From Algoriphagus pacificus (GTDB taxonomy: Bacteria; Bacteroidota; Bacteroidia; Cytophagales; Cyclobacteriaceae): a stretch of 64,000 bases of DNA. The stretch spans positions 620,001-684,000 of the forward strand of contig NZ_JAFKCU010000002.1 in assembly GCF_017254845.1 (NCBI RefSeq), given 5' to 3'. Under the pieces are notes generated by a model. The model saw nothing but the letters and a program-made list of their open reading frames with translations, had not been told where the DNA came from and did not search any database. Made by a program: the position numbers and the translations under genes. Positions 24,631 to 32,781 of this stretch are shown here, piece by piece (within the stretch, counting starts at the first letter, position 1; each line of letters starts with the position of its first letter).

Positions 24631-24653
24631 AAGCCACGTCAGGGACATGGCTT
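24631..24653 (-). terminator. Terminator of the aromatic amino acid operon
   Basis: AAGCCA-C-GTC / GAC-A-TGGCTT, a 10-position stem with one mismatch and a 3-base loop, 24 bp past the tyrA stop. Read on the minus strand it is followed by TTCTTTTAT. It closes the operon that starts at 31.1 kb. Confidence 0.72.
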
Positions 24654-24676: not shown

Positions 24677-25525
24677 TTAATTTCCTAAATCCAGAATATC
24701 TCTGATTTTATTGATTTCTGCCATTTCCTCAAACAAGGCTTGCGAGTCGCTCTGAGCAATTTTTTCTCTAAATGAGGAAAGGTTTGCGATATAGCCGTCC
24801 AGTGCGTTTAGAATATTCTCTTTGTTTTCGGTCAAAATTGGAGTCCACATAGCTGGGCTTGATTTGGCAAGTCGTACTGTAGAGGCAAATCCGGAACCTG
24901 CCATATCAAAAATGTTTTTTTCATCAGCCATCTTTTGCAGTACTGTCTGCCCAAGCATGAAAGAAGAAATATGAGATAGGTGTGATACAAAGGCTAAATG
25001 CCTATCATGCTCCTCCGCATCCATAAACCGAAGTTTAAGGTTCAACGCATCAAACAACTCGTATGCTTTTTCTTTGAGGTGTAAATCCGTCTTTTCCAGT
25101 TCGCAGATGATCATTACTTTTCTGTCCAGCAAATCTTCCAAAGCAGCTTTAGGTCCAGAATATTCTGTTCCGGCAATCGGGTGAGCTGCTAAATATTGAG
25201 CTCTATTTGGATGGTTTGCTACCAGCTTCGTTAATCGGGATTTGGTCGAACCCACGTCAAAAACCAGCGTATTTGGTCCGATAGTGTCCAAAGTTTGGAT
25301 TAGCAAATCACCCAATGTGTCAGCAGGAGTTGCCAAAATGACTAAATCAGTATCTAAATCAGGAGTTTCTTTTACTTCTGAAATAATCTCTAGAGTCAGA
25401 GCATCCTTTTGGTTTTGCGGGTCAATATCATAACCGGTTACAGTAAGATCAGCGATTTTCTTTTTAGCGCCTAGTGAAAATGATCCTCCTAAAAGTCCAA
25501 GTCCGATAATGTGAATTTTTTTCAT
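24677..25525 (-). CDS. tyrA: Prephenate dehydrogenase
   Basis: TyrA converts prephenate to 4-hydroxyphenylpyruvate with NAD, the step to tyrosine. The 282-residue protein starts MKKIHIIGLGLLGGSFSLG, the NAD-binding GxGxxG. Family motifs follow: VFDVGSTK, LAAHPIAGTEYSGPKAA with the catalytic His, and HLAFVSHLSHISSFML. An in-frame ATG at 25570 would add 15 residues that precede the Rossmann fold and lie in the intergenic palindrome region, so 25525 is preferred. It is the last gene of the operon and lies 93 bp after the aminotransferase gene. No ACT domain is visible, so feedback by tyrosine would have to act elsewhere. Confidence 0.93.
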   Translation of the reverse strand: MKKIHIIGLGLLGGSFSLGAKKKIADLTVTGYDIDPQNQKDALTLEIISEVKETPDLDTDLVILATPADTLGDLLIQTLDTIGPNTLVFDVGSTKSRLTKLVANHPNRAQYLAAHPIAGTEYSGPKAALEDLLDRKVMIICELEKTDLHLKEKAYELFDALNLKLRFMDAEEHDRHLAFVSHLSHISSFMLGQTVLQKMADEKNIFDMAGSGFASTVRLAKSSPAMWTPILTENKENILNALDGYIANLSSFREKIAQSDSQALFEEMAEINKIRDILDLGN

Positions 25526-25546
25526 CTGTTTAATTTTTTGGTCTTC

Positions 25547-25560
25547 CCGATGGCTATCGG
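25547..25560. repeat. Short palindrome in the aminotransferase-tyrA gap
   Basis: CCGAT-GGCT-ATCGG with outer complementary TCTT/AAGA. It forms a compact stem-loop inside the operon, 35 bp upstream of the preferred tyrA start. It has the look of a small dispersed palindromic element of this phylum, but only one copy was noticed here. Confidence 0.45.
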
Positions 25561-25618
25561 TAAGAATCAAGCAAGGGTATTATTTCTTCAGAAAAGGTAA
25601 TCCTAGCTTGATTTCTTT

Positions 25619-26767
25619 TTATGGTTTAATGCGATTGATTGCTTCTAATATTTTGAATTCTGGCATGCAAAGAGAAATCCGAACGTAGCCTTCTCCCTGG
25701 GACCCAAAGATTTTACCCGGTGTGATGAATATATGCCTTTCGTAAAGCAATTGATCCACGATTTCCTCAGCTGTTTTGCCATCTGGTACTTTACACCAAA
25801 CAAACAAACCTGAGGCATCTTTGGCATAAGTCAAACCAAGTTTATCAGCTAATTTCCAGACTAGTTTTCTACGGTTGGCATAAAGCTCACCCAGTTCCTC
25901 AAACCATCCTTTCCCTAATTTCAAAGCAGCGATAGCACCCTTTTGAATGCCTAGAAACATCCCAGAGTCCATGTTGCTTTTCACCTTCAAAATCTTTTGG
26001 ATCCAGTCTGCCCTACCTACCAGCATACCCACTCGCCATCCCGGCATGTTGAAGGTTTTACTTAGTGAGTTTAATTCCAAAGCTACATCTGTTGCTCCGG
26101 CCACTTCCAAAATACTGAGAGGCTTTTCACTCAAAATATGACTATATGGATTATCGTGAAGCAGCACGATTTCATTTCTTTTTGCAAAGGCGACAATCTC
26201 TTCCAAAATCTTTTTTGAACCAGGAGCACCCGTCGGCATATGGGGATAATTGATCCACATGAGTTTGACTTTACTTAAATCCCTGCTTTCAAGTTCCTCA
26301 AGATTTGGTCTTCCTTTTTGACTTAAATCCAAAGTGTAATAAACCGGTTCTGCTCCTAGCAAATTGGTAACGGAAGCATAAGTCGGATAACCTGGATCAG
26401 GAATCAAAACCTGGTCTCCAGGGTTCAAGAATGTCATGCTGATGTGCATGATTCCTTCTTTTGATCCGATTAGTGGTAAGATTTCTTTATCAGGCTGGAG
26501 GCTAACACCATATTCTCTTGCATAAAACTCAGCCATAGCAATCCGGAGTTCTGGAATCCCCTGGTAGCTTTGATAACCATGTGCTTGAGGGTTTTCTACT
26601 GTGCTTTTCATGGCTTCCAAGACCAGTTTGTCAGGTGCCAAATCAGGACTTCCGATTCCTAGATTTATCACTGGCTTGCCTTCCGCAATCATTTGATTTA
26701 CCTCTCTCAGCTTGGCAGAAAAATAGTATTCCTGAACTGTTTCGATTCTTTGTGAAAAGCCTTTCAT
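25619..26767 (-). CDS. Class I/II PLP aminotransferase of the aromatic operon
   Basis: A 382-residue fold-type I aminotransferase. Motifs: INLGIGSPDLAPD near the N-terminus, PGYPTYASV, and the PLP lysine in LNSLSKTFNMPGWRVGMLVG; a late VRISLCMP Arg binds the substrate carboxylate. Its position between pheA and tyrA suggests that it transaminates phenylpyruvate and 4-hydroxyphenylpyruvate, although the sequence also resembles LL-diaminopimelate and other alpha-class enzymes. Its ATG shares a base with the pheA stop (TAATG), so translation is probably coupled. Confidence 0.9.
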   Translation of the reverse strand: MKGFSQRIETVQEYYFSAKLREVNQMIAEGKPVINLGIGSPDLAPDKLVLEAMKSTVENPQAHGYQSYQGIPELRIAMAEFYAREYGVSLQPDKEILPLIGSKEGIMHISMTFLNPGDQVLIPDPGYPTYASVTNLLGAEPVYYTLDLSQKGRPNLEELESRDLSKVKLMWINYPHMPTGAPGSKKILEEIVAFAKRNEIVLLHDNPYSHILSEKPLSILEVAGATDVALELNSLSKTFNMPGWRVGMLVGRADWIQKILKVKSNMDSGMFLGIQKGAIAALKLGKGWFEELGELYANRRKLVWKLADKLGLTYAKDASGLFVWCKVPDGKTAEEIVDQLLYERHIFITPGKIFGSQGEGYVRISLCMPEFKILEAINRIKP

Positions 26768-27591
26768 TATTTTCTGCTTTGGTATTCTCCAAATATTTTA
26801 ACCTCGCCAAACCTCTCTGAAATCTCCTTCATGGTTTGAAGAAATAAATCATAATCCTCAAATACTGTGTCCATAAAAAAGGCATATTCCCATGGTTTTT
26901 GGATCACTGGGATAGATTGGATTTTGCTCAAATCTAAGCCGTTTTCACTCATCAAAGTCAAAAGTTTTGCAAGTCCTCCTTTAATATTTTGTATGGTGAC
27001 TTTTATTGAAGCCTTATTGGGAGTGAAGTCATGAGTTACCTGTGCTTTTTGCAAGATGATAAATCGAGTGAAATTGCTTTTTACCGTTTGGATATCTTTT
27101 GCGATGATTTCCAAACTATAAATCTCTGCTGCTATCCGAGAAGCGATTGCTCCGACACCTGTCAAATTACCTGCTGCTATTTGCTGGGCAATTGCAGCTG
27201 TGTCCACATCATCTTTTAATTGGATTTCCGGGTATTGAGCAAAAAATGCTTTGCACTGAAGGATGGCCATCGGATGGGAGCGGACCTCACGAATGTCTTC
27301 GATTTTTTGTCCCGGCAAAGCCATCAGTTGATGGGCGATCGGCAAGTAAAACTCATCTCGAATAGTCAATTCATACCTATCAATCAACTCGTAATTAGGG
27401 AGAATCGCTCCAGCAATGGAATTTTCAATTGCCATGATTGCAAAATCTGCCTCTCCAGTTGATACTGATTTTGCGACCAGCTCAAATGTATTGAAAGGCA
27501 AAATATCAGTCTCTTCTCCAAAATTAGCCAATGCAACTTGATGATGGAAAGAACCAGGAACGCCCTGGATCGCTATCTTAAGTTTTCCCAT
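26767..27591 (-). CDS. pheA: Prephenate dehydratase with ACT domain
   Basis: PheA turns prephenate into phenylpyruvate. The 274-residue protein starts KIAIQGVPGSFHHQVA; the catalytic domain has AIMAIENSIAGAI, SHPMAILQCKAF and NFTRFIIL, the last holding the conserved Thr-Arg-Phe. Residues from about 195 form an ACT domain (KASIKVTIQNIKGGLAKLL then LSKIQSIPV), in which the ESRP-type phenylalanine-binding site reads QSIPV. Phe feedback is therefore likely. There is no chorismate mutase part here; that activity is fused to the DAHP synthase at the head of the operon. It starts 3 bp after aroA. Confidence 0.93.
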   Translation of the reverse strand: MGKLKIAIQGVPGSFHHQVALANFGEETDILPFNTFELVAKSVSTGEADFAIMAIENSIAGAILPNYELIDRYELTIRDEFYLPIAHQLMALPGQKIEDIREVRSHPMAILQCKAFFAQYPEIQLKDDVDTAAIAQQIAAGNLTGVGAIASRIAAEIYSLEIIAKDIQTVKSNFTRFIILQKAQVTHDFTPNKASIKVTIQNIKGGLAKLLTLMSENGLDLSKIQSIPVIQKPWEYAFFMDTVFEDYDLFLQTMKEISERFGEVKIFGEYQSRK

Positions 27592-27594
27592 CTT

Positions 27595-28836
27595 TTATGA
27601 CTTGGTTTCCATTTCGATCCCCAATAATTCACAATGCTTCCAAAAGCTAGGATAAGACTTGTTGACCACTGCTGGATCTTCTATGATTACTCGAGTTTTG
27701 GTCAATAAAGGCATGAAAGCCATTCCCATTCTATGATCTTCATAGGTATGAATCCGTACTTCTGCAGGCATGGTGAAAGAAGGGATTACTTGATATACTT
27801 CAGGCTCTATTTCCACTAAATCAGCATTGAATTTTGCCAACTCCTGCTGAAGGGCAAAAATCCTATCTGTTTCTTTGATTTTTAAGCTTTCCAATCCTGT
27901 GAAAACAGCATTTTGACCTAAGATAGCACAGGTTACAGCTACCGTCTGAGCTAAGTCTGGGCAGTGGGTAAAATCCCAATTTTTCAATCCTTTTACAGCT
28001 TGTTTTTGCAACAAAACTCCGCCTTCTCTGAAGGTACTTTTTATGCCAAGGTGATCCATGATATCCACTATTTTTGAATCACCTTGCAAACTGTTTTCTT
28101 TTAATCCTTCTAAAAAAAGAGCACCTGAATCAGCGCAGGCAAGCAAACTAAACCAGTAACTTGCTCCTGACCAATCACTTTCCACCGCAAATGAAGTTGG
28201 TTGGTAGGCTTGATGGGCAACATGAATGAAATTATCTTTCCAAGTATATTTTATTCCAAACTGCTCCATCAATTGAAGTGTCATTTCAATATAGGTTCGA
28301 GAACCAACTTTTCCTTCCAATTCTATTTCCAATCCTTCCGGTAAAACAGGTGCAATCATCAACATTGCTGAAATGTATTGAGAAGAAACATCACCCCTGA
28401 TTTTTACTTTATTGGAAGTCTGGGAAGCTAGTCCATGAATAGCTAGTGGGGGATAGCCCTCAACACCTAAATAGTGTATTTCCGCTCCGATACTTCGCAA
28501 AGCATCTACCAGAATTCCAATCGGGCGCTCACACATCCTGGGTGTTCCGGTCATGACTTTGTTTTGATTAGTCACTGAGGCATAGGCTGTCAAAAAGCGC
28601 ATGGTTGTTCCCGCATCAAGCACATCATAAACGGGAGGGTTTTTACCCAATAAACGAATCATCGTTTGGGTATCCCGAGCCTCAGCTAGATTGGATATTT
28701 TGTTGTTTCCTTCTGTCAAAGCATCAATTACCAAAACCCGGTTGGATTCACTTTTTGAAGAGGGAAGTGGGATTGTTACGGTTTGGTAATCGCTTTTTTG
28801 GCTTAACTGCAACAGGTCTTTTGTATCGGTACTCAC
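27595..28836 (-). CDS. aroA: 3-phosphoshikimate 1-carboxyvinyltransferase (EPSP synthase)
   Basis: AroA joins shikimate 3-phosphate and PEP. Family motifs are visible: PLPSSKSESNRVLV, DAGTTMRFLTAYAS, GTPRMCERPIGILVDALRSIG, GDVSSQYISAMLM, and KETDRIFALQQELAKF, DHRMGMAFM at the end. A start at the GTG at 28836 (17 bp after aroB) gives 413 residues, the usual size; the ATG at 28923 would overlap aroB by 70 bp and add a basic tail that does not fit. It is the third gene of the operon. The pattern is of the glyphosate-sensitive-like class by general look, though I could not test this. Confidence 0.92.
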   Translation of the reverse strand: MSTDTKDLLQLSQKSDYQTVTIPLPSSKSESNRVLVIDALTEGNNKISNLAEARDTQTMIRLLGKNPPVYDVLDAGTTMRFLTAYASVTNQNKVMTGTPRMCERPIGILVDALRSIGAEIHYLGVEGYPPLAIHGLASQTSNKVKIRGDVSSQYISAMLMIAPVLPEGLEIELEGKVGSRTYIEMTLQLMEQFGIKYTWKDNFIHVAHQAYQPTSFAVESDWSGASYWFSLLACADSGALFLEGLKENSLQGDSKIVDIMDHLGIKSTFREGGVLLQKQAVKGLKNWDFTHCPDLAQTVAVTCAILGQNAVFTGLESLKIKETDRIFALQQELAKFNADLVEIEPEVYQVIPSFTMPAEVRIHTYEDHRMGMAFMPLLTKTRVIIEDPAVVNKSYPSFWKHCELLGIEMETKS

Positions 28837-28853
28837 TGGTTTAGGTTTAAGAA

Positions 28854-29888
28854 TTAGAGGTTTTCGTAGTAGAAAATGGATTCTTCGATTTCTTGCCGAT
28901 TTACAGGGATGTTGTAAGTACAAGAGCCGATTTTTTCCAATAAAGAGAACATCAAAACTTCTCCTTCATTTTTTTTGTCTTGGAGACAAAGGTCAAGAAT
29001 CGGTTTTAGATCAGCTTTGGAAAAGGTAAATTTTCCATAGATGCTCAAGAAGATATTTTGAATGGTTTCAAGTTCTTCCTTGCTCAAATTTGTTTTTTGG
29101 AATGACAGATAAGCTTCGCAAATCATCCCAATTGCAATTGCTTCTCCGTGAAGCAAATGTTTGGGTCCATCTAGAAAATGCGATTCAAACGCATGTCCGA
29201 TGGTGTGCCCAAAATTCAATATTTTTCGAAGTCCAGCTTCTTTGGGATCGGCTAAGACGACTTGTTTTTTTATTCCAACAGAATGCTGGATAAGTTCCAT
29301 CCAGTCTTGATCTTTCCAATTTTCAATTTTCAGCTTCTCAAAGTAAGCTTTGTCTTGAATTAAGCCGTGTTTGATGATTTCTGCGTAGCCTGATCGCAAC
29401 TCTTCTTCAGGAAGGGTTGACAGAAATTCAGGGGAAATCATCACTGTTTCTGGCTCATTGAAAGTGCCCAAATGATTTTTCAATCCTTCGAAATCAACTC
29501 CCAATTTTCCCCCAACACTGGCATCTACTTGCGATAGAAGGGTAGTTGGGATATTGATAAATCGGATTCCTCTTTTGTAAATGCTTGCGCAAAATCCTCC
29601 CATATCACCAATGACCCCTCCGCCAATGTTGATGAACAAAGCTTTGCGGTCAAGTGCAGCAGCAGTCATAGCTGACCAAATCGCAGCACAGGTGCTTAAA
29701 TTTTTGTTTTTTTCACCTGCTGAAACTGAATAGAAAAGAGTTTTAGCAGGCAAAACTGACTTTAAAAGAGGGAGGCAATGTTGCTCGGTGTTTTGGTCCG
29801 TCAGGACGAAAAGTTTGGAAAAGGAAATGCCTTGAAGCACTTTTTCCAAGTCTGAGGCAATTGAGTTTGAGAAAATGACTGGGTCCAC
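28854..29888 (-). CDS. aroB: 3-dehydroquinate synthase
   Basis: AroB cyclises DAHP to 3-dehydroquinate using NAD and a metal ion. The 344-residue sequence has INIGGGVIGDMGGFCASIYKRGI for NAD, IPTTLLSQVDASVGGKLGVDF, GYAEIIKHGLI with metal-binding Glu, and LNFGHTIGHAFES and HGEAIAIGM with the metal-binding His residues. The start MDPVIFSNSIAS is normal. It follows the DAHP synthase-mutase gene after an 87-bp gap that holds a strong hairpin. Confidence 0.95.
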   Translation of the reverse strand: MDPVIFSNSIASDLEKVLQGISFSKLFVLTDQNTEQHCLPLLKSVLPAKTLFYSVSAGEKNKNLSTCAAIWSAMTAAALDRKALFINIGGGVIGDMGGFCASIYKRGIRFINIPTTLLSQVDASVGGKLGVDFEGLKNHLGTFNEPETVMISPEFLSTLPEEELRSGYAEIIKHGLIQDKAYFEKLKIENWKDQDWMELIQHSVGIKKQVVLADPKEAGLRKILNFGHTIGHAFESHFLDGPKHLLHGEAIAIGMICEAYLSFQKTNLSKEELETIQNIFLSIYGKFTFSKADLKPILDLCLQDKKNEGEVLMFSLLEKIGSCTYNIPVNRQEIEESIFYYENL

Positions 29889-29975: not shown

Positions 29976-31073
29976 TTACTTTTTGACAGCTTCTGATTCG
30001 CGAAGTTGTTTTTCTTGTCTTTTTACGGATTCTTCATGAATAGAATAAAGTAACTCCTTCATAAATTTCTCGCTAAGATTTCTTTGAACACCTTTTTGAG
30101 TACGGCTTTCCATTACTTCTTTCCATCTGTTTGATTGAAATACTGTTAGATGATGCTCTCTCTTGTGCGCTCCGATTTGATCAATTACAGCAAATCTCTC
30201 CTGAAGGATATCCAAAAGCTGATCGTCAAGATGGTCAACAGCTCTTCTCAAATCATTTAATTTTTCACTAGGCTGCTCAGTTTCCATAGGTTTCTTGAAG
30301 TCGATTGCATTCAAAATTTCCTTCAATCTCTTTGGAGTAACTTGCTGCTTGGCATCAGACCATGCATTATCAGGATCATGGTGAGTTTCGATCATCAAGC
30401 CATCTAATCCAAAGTTGATCGCTCTTTGAGAGATCTCAAGGATTCCGTCTCTTTTACCGACGATATGGCTAGGGTCATTGATTACTTCCATTCCAGTCCA
30501 AACACGCTTAAGGTGAATTGGCATAGACCAGTTTGGCTTGTTTCTATAACGCTTGTCATAAGCATCAGAGAAACCTCTATGGATTGCCGCTAGCTTAGTC
30601 AAACCCACCGCGTGGAATCTTTCTAGAGCACCCATCCAAAGATCTAAGTCTGGATTCATTGGGTTTTTTACCATCACCGGAATATCAGAACCTCTTAGCG
30701 CTTCAGCAATTTCCTGTACAGCAAATGGGTTAACCGTTGTTCTGGCTCCAACCCAAACTACATCTACATTATTTCTCAAAGCGATTTCTGCATGAGCCGC
30801 GTTTCCAACTTCTACTGTAATTGGGATATTCAAGTGATGACGAACGATTTCCATCCATTTCAACCCTTCTTCACCGATTCCTTCGAAGCTTCCTGGTCTG
30901 GTTCTTGGCTTCCAGATACCTGCTCGGAACATGGATGGCACCACGTTGTTTTCCTTCAATTCAATACAGATCTTCTCGATCTGCTCAGGAGTCTCTGCGG
31001 AGCAAGGTCCTGCGATGATAGTGGGGCCTGTTAGTCCAAGTCCCCAGTCTTTGATTTGTTTGTGCGTTTTCAT
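29976..31073 (-). CDS. Bifunctional DAHP synthase / chorismate mutase
   Basis: A fusion of type I-beta (KDO8P-like) DAHP synthase (about 1-260) and AroQ-type chorismate mutase (about 270-360). Synthase motifs: TIIAGPCSAETPEQ, MFRAGIWKPRTRPGSFEG, KNPMNPDLDLWMGA, IHRGFSDA, HIVGKRDGI and METHHDPDNAWSDA. The mutase part shows LNDLRRAVDHLDDQLLDIL and the Lys of IGAHKREH. It supplies the first step of the shikimate pathway and the branch step to prephenate, so it heads the Phe/Tyr operon logically. Both the ATG at 31085 and at 31073 are possible; 31085 lies only 7 bases after the attenuator T tract, so 31073 is preferred. Confidence 0.93.
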   Translation of the reverse strand: MKTHKQIKDWGLGLTGPTIIAGPCSAETPEQIEKICIELKENNVVPSMFRAGIWKPRTRPGSFEGIGEEGLKWMEIVRHHLNIPITVEVGNAAHAEIALRNNVDVVWVGARTTVNPFAVQEIAEALRGSDIPVMVKNPMNPDLDLWMGALERFHAVGLTKLAAIHRGFSDAYDKRYRNKPNWSMPIHLKRVWTGMEVINDPSHIVGKRDGILEISQRAINFGLDGLMIETHHDPDNAWSDAKQQVTPKRLKEILNAIDFKKPMETEQPSEKLNDLRRAVDHLDDQLLDILQERFAVIDQIGAHKREHHLTVFQSNRWKEVMESRTQKGVQRNLSEKFMKELLYSIHEESVKRQEKQLRESEAVKK

Positions 31074-31091
31074 ACGGCTAAGCATTAAATG

Positions 31092-31177
31092 AAAAAACCC
31101 GACTCTTTCGAATCGGGCTCTTTGTATAGTTTATTTTCTTTTAGTTTTTGGCTAGACAATAGGCAGCTCCGATTCGA
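31092..31177 (-). promoter_or_regulatory. Phe/Tyr transcription attenuator (terminator plus antiterminator)
   Basis: On the minus strand the terminator is CCCGATTC-GAAA-GAGTCGGG (31117-31098) followed by six T residues (31097-31092), an 8-bp stem with a GNRA tetraloop. The upstream segment TCGAATCGG (31177-31169), inside the leader peptide gene, is complementary over 9 bases to CCGATTCGA (31116-31108), the first arm of the terminator, so the two structures exclude each other. A third segment, CGATTT (31220-31215), can pair with AAATCG (31180-31175) and would free the terminator. This is the 1-2-3-4 order of classical ribosome-mediated attenuators. Terminator seen directly; mechanism inferred. 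Confidence 0.88.
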
Positions 31178-31236
31178 TTTTGGCTTCGAAAGTAAAAGTA
31201 AAAGAATGTAAAATAAATCGCGGCTGTCATTAACAT
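31141..31236 (-). CDS. Phe/Tyr-rich leader peptide of the aromatic operon
   Basis: A 31-codon open frame that encodes MLMTAAIYFTFFYFYFRSQ and 12 more residues. Codons 8-16 read YFTFFYFYF: five Phe and three Tyr in nine positions. Ribosomes starved of Phe-tRNA or Tyr-tRNA would stall there, upstream of the antiterminator segment (codons 20-23) and the terminator just before the DAHP synthase start. It is analogous to enterobacterial pheL in function, but not in sequence. Start at 31236 or the second ATG at 31230; a perfect -33/-7 promoter places the transcript start at or within a few bases of the ATG, so the message is nearly leaderless. Confidence 0.88.
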   Translation of the reverse strand: MLMTAAIYFTFFYFYFRSQNRIGAAYCLAKN

Positions 31237-31240
31237 GCCC

Positions 31241-31271
31241 CAAATGTAAGCTAGGGTATTTTAAAAACAAA
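31241..31271 (-). promoter_or_regulatory. Bacteroidota-type promoter of the aromatic operon
   Basis: On the minus strand TTTG (31271-31268), 19 bases, then TACATTTG (31248-31241) match the Bacteroidota primary sigma consensus TTTG-N19-TAnnTTTG exactly. Transcription should start about 4-7 bases further on, at or next to the leader peptide ATG. Confidence 0.85.
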
Positions 31272-31573
31272 ATAATTTTTCCCTATAAAATTTAACAACT
31301 CCATATTAAATGGCAGATTCTGTTTCCATCTTTCATTTCCAGCTTGGAAATGAATCGAATTCAGAATTATATTCTGTTTTAGAAATTATTTATTGAAATT
31401 AATTTTAAAAATATTTTTTCGATTTATTTCCTGAGAATGAAGGGATTCAAATGTGCAATATTCTTTGGCTTCAAAGATTCCAAATCCCGGCTGCACTAAA
31501 ATCTATTTTTGATTGAATGGAGTGAAGGCTTTGTTTCTTACAAACATATGCCTAGCGTAAGTAGTTTTTTTGA

Positions 31574-31581
31574 TATCTTTG
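31574..31581 (+). promoter_or_regulatory. -7 element of the proline dehydrogenase gene
   Basis: TATCTTTG fits the Bacteroidota -7 box TAnnTTTG; no good TTTG lies 19-21 bases upstream. Transcription would start near 31586, which rules out the earlier ATG at 31570 and supports 31600 as the start codon. The rest of 31272-31573 is AT-rich and I see no gene in it. Confidence 0.6.
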
Positions 31582-31599
31582 CACCTTTATTTTAGGAAT

Positions 31600-32781
31600 A
31601 TGCCCACAAAATCGTCTATTTCTTTCGAAAACCTGGAAGTTGCCTTTGCTTCAAAATCTGATGCTGAGCTTAAAAAAATGCATCTGGTTTTCTCCTTGCT
31701 GAATAATAAGACTCTCTCCGATATCGGGATTGCGTTGACTCATTTCGCATTGAAGCTAAAGCTGCCAATCAAATGGATCATGAAGCAGACCATGTTTGGG
31801 CATTTTTGTGGTGGAGAAACTATCAAAGAAAGCATCAAAGCCTGTGAGAAACTTGCTGAATTTGGAATTGAGGCGATTCTGGATTATTCGGTAGAAGGGA
31901 AAGGAGATGAGGAGAGTTTTGAAAGGACTACAGAAGAAATTCGCCAGACGATGGTAGAATCTGCTAAAACGGATTATATGCCTTTTGGAGTGATCAAAGT
32001 GACCGGATTGGGTGATTATCACAATTTGATTAAAATCCAGGCAGGAGAGAAACTGAATCCTCAGGAGCAAATAGCTTACGATAAAACCAAAGCCAGAGTG
32101 GATTTACTCTGCAAAACAGCCCATGATCTAGGTTTGAAGATCTTGATCGATGCAGAAGAATCATGGTTCCAGGATGCTGTCGATAACCTGGCTTACGAGG
32201 CTATGGAAAAGTATAATCTTGAGCGATGTGTTGTTTATAATACCTATCAGATGTATCGTCATGATATGCTTGGAAGATTGAAGAAAGCTAAAGAAGCAGC
32301 TTCACAAAAAGGTTATTTGCTTGGAGCAAAACTGGTTCGTGGGGCTTACATGGAGAAAGAAGGAGAGAGAGCAGAAAAGTATGGATATCCAAGTCCTATC
32401 CAACCCAGCAAAGCCGCAACAGACAAGGATTACAATGCCGGTGTAGAATTCTGCATAGAAAATAAGGATATCGTTTTTCTTATGAGTGGGTCACACAATG
32501 AAAACAGCAATTACCTAGTTGCTGAACTCATGAATAAATATGGAGTAGACCCTAAATCTGATAAGGTTTTCTTTGCGCAGCTCTATGGAATGAGTGATAA
32601 TATTTCATTCAACTTGGCAAAAGCTGGTTACCGGGTGGTGAAATATGTTCCTTATGGTCCGGTAGAAAAGGTAATGCCTTATTTGACAAGAAGAGCTGCA
32701 GAAAACAGTAGTATTGCTGGTCAAAGCAGCAGAGAGTTTGAACTGATCAAGCGGGAAATGAAACGAAGAAACAGCAAGTAG
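31600..32781 (+). CDS. Proline dehydrogenase
   Basis: A 393-residue monofunctional flavin enzyme that oxidises proline to pyrroline-5-carboxylate. The TIM barrel contains ILIDAEESWFQDAVDNLAYEAMEKYN, VVYNTYQMYRHDMLGRL, GAKLVRGAYMEKE and FFAQLYGMSDNISFNLAKAGYRVVKYVPYGPVEKVMPYLTRRAAENSS, with the two C-terminal arginines that bind the substrate carboxylate. There is no P5C dehydrogenase domain or neighbour, so the second step is encoded elsewhere. Start at 31600 was chosen because the -7 box lies between it and the upstream ATG. The next gene, lysS, is 83 bp away on the same strand. Confidence 0.93.
   Translation: MPTKSSISFENLEVAFASKSDAELKKMHLVFSLLNNKTLSDIGIALTHFALKLKLPIKWIMKQTMFGHFCGGETIKESIKACEKLAEFGIEAILDYSVEGKGDEESFERTTEEIRQTMVESAKTDYMPFGVIKVTGLGDYHNLIKIQAGEKLNPQEQIAYDKTKARVDLLCKTAHDLGLKILIDAEESWFQDAVDNLAYEAMEKYNLERCVVYNTYQMYRHDMLGRLKKAKEAASQKGYLLGAKLVRGAYMEKEGERAEKYGYPSPIQPSKAATDKDYNAGVEFCIENKDIVFLMSGSHNENSNYLVAELMNKYGVDPKSDKVFFAQLYGMSDNISFNLAKAGYRVVKYVPYGPVEKVMPYLTRRAAENSSIAGQSSREFELIKREMKRRNSK

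Follow-up and report, generated by a model that had tools for sequence, protein, structure and literature searches.

The locus and its operon

The window analysed here is a 64-kb stretch of the Algoriphagus pacificus genome, which carries six adjoining genes of an aromatic operon on its minus strand. The first gene encodes a DAHP synthase/chorismate mutase (aroG/CM, 29976..31085; Pfam PF00793 and PF01817) and possibly starts at an ATG at 31073; its product, DAHPS-CM, is up to 95% identical to homologues, the closest being found in Algoriphagus species. It is followed by aroB (3-dehydroquinate synthase, 28854..29888, TIGR01357 above cut-off), aroA (EPSP synthase, 27595..28923, TIGR01356 above cut-off, the real start probably lying downstream of 28923), pheA (prephenate dehydratase, 26767..27591, PF00800 above and NF008865 below its cut-off), a class I/II aminotransferase gene (25619..26767, PF00155, with none of the NCBIfam models displayed above cut-off) and tyrA (prephenate dehydrogenase, 24677..25570, NF006307 above cut-off). 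A terminator-like hairpin after tyrA (24631..24653), found in a consensus scan, is the likely end of the operon. Judged by their shared strand and spacing, the six genes are probably co-transcribed, as the initial annotation had proposed, and their profile matches identify them as genes for making Phe and Tyr, a content that suits control by these two amino acids. Upstream lies a proline dehydrogenase-like gene on the plus strand (31570..32781, NCBIfam matches below their cut-offs). Since this gene is divergent, the hairpin at 31092-31119 in front of aroG/CM is not one that closes an operon lying upstream.

The space before aroG/CM holds, on the minus strand, the 31-codon reading frame that had been annotated there (MLMTAAIYFTFFYFYFRSQNRIGAAYCLAKN, 31141..31236; ATG 31236-31234, TAA 31143-31141), with YFTFFYFYF at codons 8-16 (31189..31215). 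It is predicted to be translated into a short leader peptide, and its codon run is for the amino acids that the operon makes. The annotated Bacteroidota promoter was likewise found, with a TTTG element at -33 (31268..31271), a 19-nt spacer and the -7 element TACATTTG (31241..31248, consensus TAnnTTTG), all on the minus strand. Passages of a study on Flavobacterium psychrophilum place TAnnTTTG at -12 to -5 (PMC9723704). By this measure +1 would fall on the A of the leader ATG, and transcription is predicted to start at 31236.

Conservation of the leader in the family

We scanned both strands of the window for an ATG-initiated ORF of 10-45 codons with at least five F/Y/W per 10 residues and a high-scoring hairpin plus T-run within 110 nt. 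The sole match was the leader site, which argues that the combination of leader and terminator did not arise by chance. Of 295 family genomes, 294 have a match to the first gene, and from the closer homologues among them we drew 110 upstream regions, a few being skipped. A Phe/Tyr leader (by script, at least five F/Y per 10 residues) was present in 103 of the 110 loci, and a terminator in all 103. The seven script misses include L081, in which a leader is readable from a GTG start and the terminator is present, and L011, whose contig ends about 180 nt upstream of the first gene. No leader was found upstream of DAHPS-CM in L109-L112, which at 50-53% identity are among the most distant of the 110. 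A set of named-record loci that overlaps the 110 gave a leader in 78 of 80, the misses being L204 and L234.

Some loci of the family show further features. In the single genome of Nitritalea halalkaliphila (L045, identical to L254), the F/Y run turns into LLLL as if by a frame change, with the promoter box and terminator intact, reflecting either a decaying attenuator or a sequencing error; L045 was counted a miss and L254 among the 78, where its run satisfies the script as a longer ORF. L004 and L011 share a similar stretch (GCGAGATTCCATGTGACC), which in L004 follows the leader and precedes the first gene and in L011 falls within the short upstream region; it is perhaps a small mobile repeat. 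In some family members a second DAHPS/chorismate mutase, 44-47% identical, lies just upstream of the attenuated gene on the same strand (G130:C6:459011-460033, G021:C28:3522-4574 and G039:C16:16660-17712).

Across 61 distinct leaders of 31 codons, Phe is invariable at codons 9, 14 and 16 and Tyr at codon 15, codons 8, 11, 12 and 13 swap between Phe and Tyr and admit no other residue, and codon 10 is Thr, Ser or Ile. Codons 21-24 (CGA ATC GGA GCT), which contain the antiterminator, are nearly frozen even synonymously. Such a pattern is expected where codons are sensed first and the RNA switches afterwards. In 100 of 103 leaders, 8-16 nt separate the final F/Y codon from the start of the antiterminator strand, which is thus placed about where the leading edge of a stalled ribosome would lie.

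Constancy at the level of the peptide is seen at codons 17 and 26-28 (31188-31186 and 31161-31153 in the window): Arg17, Cys27 and Leu28 are kept with synonymous changes in the 61 leaders, and Tyr26 is nearly always TAT. RNA pairing alone may explain this conservation only partly, and the synonymous changes within the close clade hint at selection on the peptide, as expected if the ribosome were stalled by a Phe/Tyr-rich nascent peptide responding to a free amino acid or another signal, and not through a shortage that leaves tRNA uncharged. We consider such nascent-peptide arrest improbable, because beyond the close clade almost nothing of the peptide is kept except its F/Y/W-rich run, because F and Y are interchangeable, and because the C-terminal conservation coincides in part with RNA pairing sites. 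Sensing of Phe and Tyr codons is the reading that we retain.

The distance between promoter and leader is also conserved. By script, 96 of 103 relatives have a TAnnTTT(G/A) box whose last base lies 4-5 nt upstream of the leader ATG (4 nt in 84, 5 nt in 12); spacings of 3, 6, 7 and 8 nt occur at one locus each, and the box went undetected in three. The spacing is 4 nt in 76 and 5 nt in 2 of the 78 named-record leaders. For comparison, none of the 54 window ORFs of at least 150 aa, begun at their first ATG and including some that may not be real genes, has the box 3-6 nt upstream of that ATG. A control scan of both window strands with the bare pattern TAnnTTTG-N4-5-ATG gave six matches. Single cases are thus weak, and it is the constancy across relatives that carries the argument for a leaderless mRNA, with AUG at +1, which we predict for the window's family. 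Leaders of other families mostly do not have the 4-5 nt spacing, the nearest among those displayed being L269 (4 nt, a weak leader), L166 (5 nt) and L163 (6 nt). Leaderless mRNAs account for 5.5% in F. psychrophilum according to passages of PMC9723704, which also describe Shine-Dalgarno sequences as absent in flavobacteria. In Bacteroides thetaiotaomicron, about 3.7% of 5' UTRs are reported to fall below 10 nt.

Competing helices and the proposed switch

An intrinsic terminator, recognized from its sequence, separates the leader from aroG/CM. Alignment pairing defines segment 3 (31108..31119, minus strand), comprising the terminator 5' arm and the start of the loop, and segment 4 with the U-tract (31092..31105). 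The eight pairs (CCCGATTC at 31117-31110 with GAGTCGGG at 31105-31098), GAAA loop and T6 (31097-31092) of the initial annotation are all in place on the minus strand, except that one pair is G-U and that the predicted stem reaches 14 pairs, running through A- and U-tracts in the fold. The consensus promoter/terminator scan of the window did not list this terminator, probably because the scan counts the stem on into the U-tract; a plasmid search gave no match. The antiterminator strand UCGAAUCGG (TCGAATCGG, 31169..31177) pairs with segment 3. Its nine-base complementarity to CCGATTCGA (31116-31108) was correctly noted, but only seven of these bases belong to the terminator arm and two to the loop. 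In the MFE fold, segment 1 (31210..31226; CAGC, CGAUUUAUUUU) is the 5' arm of a protector hairpin, with 31226-31210 paired to 31181-31164; its 3' arm, segment 2 (31164..31181), includes the antiterminator strand and covaries with segment 1. The competitor pairing suggested earlier, CGATTT with AAATCG, falls inside this 1:2 hairpin, but the part common to most close relatives is the adjacent CAGC/GCUG. The antiterminator is exclusive with the terminator, and the protector competes with the antiterminator. The MFE structure at the window's site consists of protector hairpin plus terminator (-32.6 kcal/mol, z -2.77).

We aligned the helices in 50 of the 98 distinct leaders, hand-picked for spread. 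A 10-pair terminator forms in 99.4% of cells with four pairs changed on both sides, and a 9-pair antiterminator in 93.8% with five such pairs, while slid controls reached at most 53% and 61%, respectively. Antiterminator shuffles attained the observed count of two-sided pairs in 17 of 500 cases and the pair types in 9 of 500, and the other three measures in none. As the protector helix drifts in place, its test was run alignment-free, comparing the duplex energy of each leader's own segments 1 and 2 with that of partners swapped between species. Across 24 diverse leaders, chosen to have at least four differences in residues 2-8, the own partner gave -12.4 kcal/mol and swapped partners -9.2, and none of 2000 permutations equalled this; for all 89 distinct pairs none of 300 did. 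L102 and L105, whose F/Y block was mis-set by the script, stayed in the permutation test and counted against it. Leader by leader the test is weaker, with only 6 of 24 having no foreign partner that was equally good or better. Since relatedness inflates permutation tests, the stronger argument is that the protector sequence is wholly replaced between clades and yet still pairs, as (C)GCAGC/GCUGC(G) in the Algoriphagus-like group, ACAAGGAC/GUCCUUGU in L095 and AACAAACC/GGUUUGUU in L101. In 16 leaders from other families, 2:3 and 1:2 were each better than all 2000 permutations. The initial annotation had staked its reading on conservation of the frame and of the pairing in relatives; the frame recurs at the 103 loci, and all three helices covary.

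These parts suggest the following sequence of events. RNA polymerase would begin transcription with the A of the leader AUG, and this 5'-terminal codon would be where a ribosome initiates. When Phe- or Tyr-tRNA is scarce, the ribosome would stall in codons 8-16, masking segment 1 wholly or partly and leaving UCGAAUCGG free at its leading edge to capture the terminator 5' arm (2:3), and the operon would be read. With a good supply, the ribosome would advance onto later codons and mask the antiterminator strand; with no ribosome, the 1:2 protector hairpin would have formed beforehand. In both of these states the 3:4 terminator would form and transcription would stop before aroG/CM.

We modeled folding with a 30-nt ribosome footprint barred from pairing in 101 of the 103 leaders (without L102 and L105). 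In RNA extending to the end of the terminator loop, the probability of 2:3 was 0.92 with the ribosome on the F/Y codons, 0.18 on the codons after, 0.72 at the stop codon and 0.84 with no ribosome. Before segment 3 exists, the mean probability of 1:2 was 0.79 in ribosome-free RNA and 0.44 when a ribosome occupied the F/Y codons. In late stalls within the F/Y block segment 1 is no longer masked, which counts against the attenuator reading. Because 2:3 (0.84) beats 1:2 (0.06) in the truncated RNA without a ribosome, 1:2 must form first. In 67 of 103 leaders, 21-24 nt separate the antiterminator pairing region from the end of the stop codon downstream of it, so that a ribosome paused at the stop would free the antiterminator strand. 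For the full leader at equilibrium, mean terminator probability was 0.85 for F/Y stalls, 0.95 for the codons after and 0.93 without a ribosome (0.83-0.95 over all states; 0.74-0.95 at the window locus). The terminator thus wins wherever the ribosome stands, which requires the switch to act kinetically, and the anatomy permits the classical switch only as a race, like that in the model of Elf and Ehrenberg (PMC1183508).

A terminator favored throughout at equilibrium would also be expected if the site were a constitutive, unregulated promoter-proximal terminator accompanied by a short ORF that arose by chance. This we judge very improbable, given that the leader frame, its F/Y content and the mutually exclusive helices are conserved together with compensatory change and that the scan found a single match on the two strands of the 64-kb window. 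Leader conservation, the three covarying helices and the operon content support the interpretation put forward in the initial annotation, and we are highly confident that the site is a ribosome-mediated transcription attenuator sensing charged tRNA-Phe and tRNA-Tyr. We infer that a shortage of Phe or Tyr very probably switches the aromatic operon on.

Spread in Bacteroidota and relation to known attenuators

To look beyond the family, we took the 6 kb upstream of DAHPS-CM at 20 loci, 19 from the same class and one, L170 (family f38), sharing only the phylum. The scan rule gave 17 matches in 16 regions, L170 included, all on the coding strand and none on the noncoding strand of the 20 regions. 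A pheA homologue (40-50% identity) comes next after the leader in all 16, 7-126 nt past the terminator except in L168, where the distance is 221 nt with a second attenuator between. Among the four regions with no scan match, pheA lies within the stretch in L164 and L173 and is absent from it in L167 and L174. In L171, two adjoining ORFs (410-1612, minus, and 1907-2965, plus) resemble, by eye, the window's proline dehydrogenase-like gene and aroB.

At 40 further loci, 38 from other families of the order and two from the window's family, about 800 nt upstream of DAHPS-CM were inspected: a leader with a strong terminator occurs in two (L115 and L122), L131 and L133 have F/Y/W-rich ORFs without a good terminator, and most order-level loci have no leader in this interval, which, like its absence from L109-L112, counts against the attenuator reading. 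At pheA instead, 10 of 20 sampled loci of the order have a leader, one of them (L269) weak. Three of these ten (L270, L272 and L273) come from distant members of the window's own family, in which DAHPS-CM is found about 2.2 kb further along the same strand. The 40 and 20 regions were hand-chosen from 272 and 111 genomes with a match, and the pheA set includes only closer homologues. The device thus seems to go with whichever gene stands first in the Phe/Tyr operon.

Two variations were seen in these sets. L115 (family f19; YYFYWFYF) and L122 (f4; YFSFYYFWY) mix Tyr, Phe and Trp codons before a terminator and DAHPS/CM, and perhaps sense all three aromatic amino acids. L259 and L260 (same order, family f13) and L168 (same class, f27) have two Phe/Tyr leader ORFs in series before pheA, each with a terminator-like hairpin, the weaker of which score 24.6, 22.0 and 22.8, respectively, against a threshold of 22; these appear to be tandem attenuators. 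A Phe/Tyr attenuator of this version recurs widely in Bacteroidota, although the principle itself is textbook. With moderate confidence, we propose that it extends through the class Bacteroidia and further, stays with the leading gene of the Phe/Tyr operon as operons are rearranged, is in tandem in some lineages and is leaderless in the window's family.

In enterobacteria, pheL is the attenuator of pheA. The window leader is like pheL and the Rfam family Phe_leader (RF01859) in its Phe-rich leader peptide, competing hairpins, terminator and aromatic operon, and RF01859 ranks second among Rfam matches to the window (20.5 bits along the full model, E 0.32), far below its cut-off of 55 bits. It differs from pheL in mixing Phe and Tyr codons, in an operon that opens with DAHP synthase/chorismate mutase, and in a -7 box that ends 4 nt before the leader AUG, leaving no room for a Shine-Dalgarno sequence. 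Mycobacteria have leaderless cysteine-responsive leader ORFs, in which the mRNA starts at the AUG and an amino acid is sensed; these share with the window leader a short sensing ORF and an AUG-start mRNA and differ in phylum and amino acid. The best weak Rfam match, BTnc231 (RF04180; 21.6 bits against a cut-off of 80.4), resembles the site mainly in its terminator and U-rich stretch, and we rejected it because its clear member (L278) has no F/Y leader before an aromatic gene and because its weak matches resemble unrelated, plain terminators. That this structured 5' leader, with its terminator in an amino-acid operon, is a metabolite-binding riboswitch, a T-box or a protein-bound leader that incidentally holds an ORF is hardly credible, since Rfam models all stay below their cut-offs, both across the window and at the leader of 11 related loci, no conserved structure was seen beyond the switching helices, and the Phe/Tyr codon run is common to all leader-bearing loci.

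Within the phylum, the window's attenuator has a counterpart in the Bacteroid-trp RNA (RF01692), named in Table 1 of Weinberg 2010 (PMC2864571), which follows the same logic but has Trp codons and precedes trpE. RF01692 matches 2 of 38 relatives, both of one genus, with the leaders MKTIANKYWWW (L154) and MKTITNNTWWW (L153), each with a terminator; the gene after the L154 leader is anthranilate synthase component I by Pfam, below the NCBIfam trpE cut-off. The model has no match in the window at its cut-off (49 bits) and none in the window's own genome at E 0.001. This genome has a Trp leader of its own (MKTIKANIWWWHLNSFQGKAQKARA in L255, contig C32; ATG at 1346), with a terminator-like hairpin and, 155 nt further on, a trpE-like gene; the AUG of this Trp leader comes 10 nt after a TAAATTTG box, against 4 nt in the Phe/Tyr leader. 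For F. psychrophilum, PMC9723704 speaks of strong clues that leader-peptide attenuation acts ahead of operons for amino-acid biosynthesis, in passages that, unlike the description given here, name no operon, codons or helices. The main text of that paper contains neither "phenylalanine" nor "aromatic", and its supplement may include a flavobacterial homologue. Among the matches listed in a search of the open-access literature, titles and abstract openings revealed no Bacteroidota Phe/Tyr attenuator; Lopatovskaya et al. 2010 (cited in PMC4833913) may cover some. The statement that attenuation in Bacteroidota is little described therefore needs qualification, as the WWW leaders of Bacteroid-trp and the F. 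psychrophilum remark mean that attenuation in this phylum is not new as such. The window leader is a ribosome-mediated attenuator that belongs to neither RF01859 nor RF01692, and its less usual traits are the predicted 5'-terminal AUG and the apparent tandem copies in relatives.

Textbook attenuation is hereby extended, with full comparative support, to a large bacterial group described, for flavobacteria, as free of Shine-Dalgarno sequences (passages of PMC9723704). The leader alignments suffice as the seed of an RNA family for which Rfam release 15 gives no match at its cut-offs. Control of the six genes would span the entry to the shikimate pathway and both the Phe and Tyr branches. The leader is also a ready system for studying transcription-translation coupling in Bacteroidota. 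If the leaderless reading is true, an AUG at +1 would synchronize ribosome and polymerase, with translation beginning only on the nascent 5' end.
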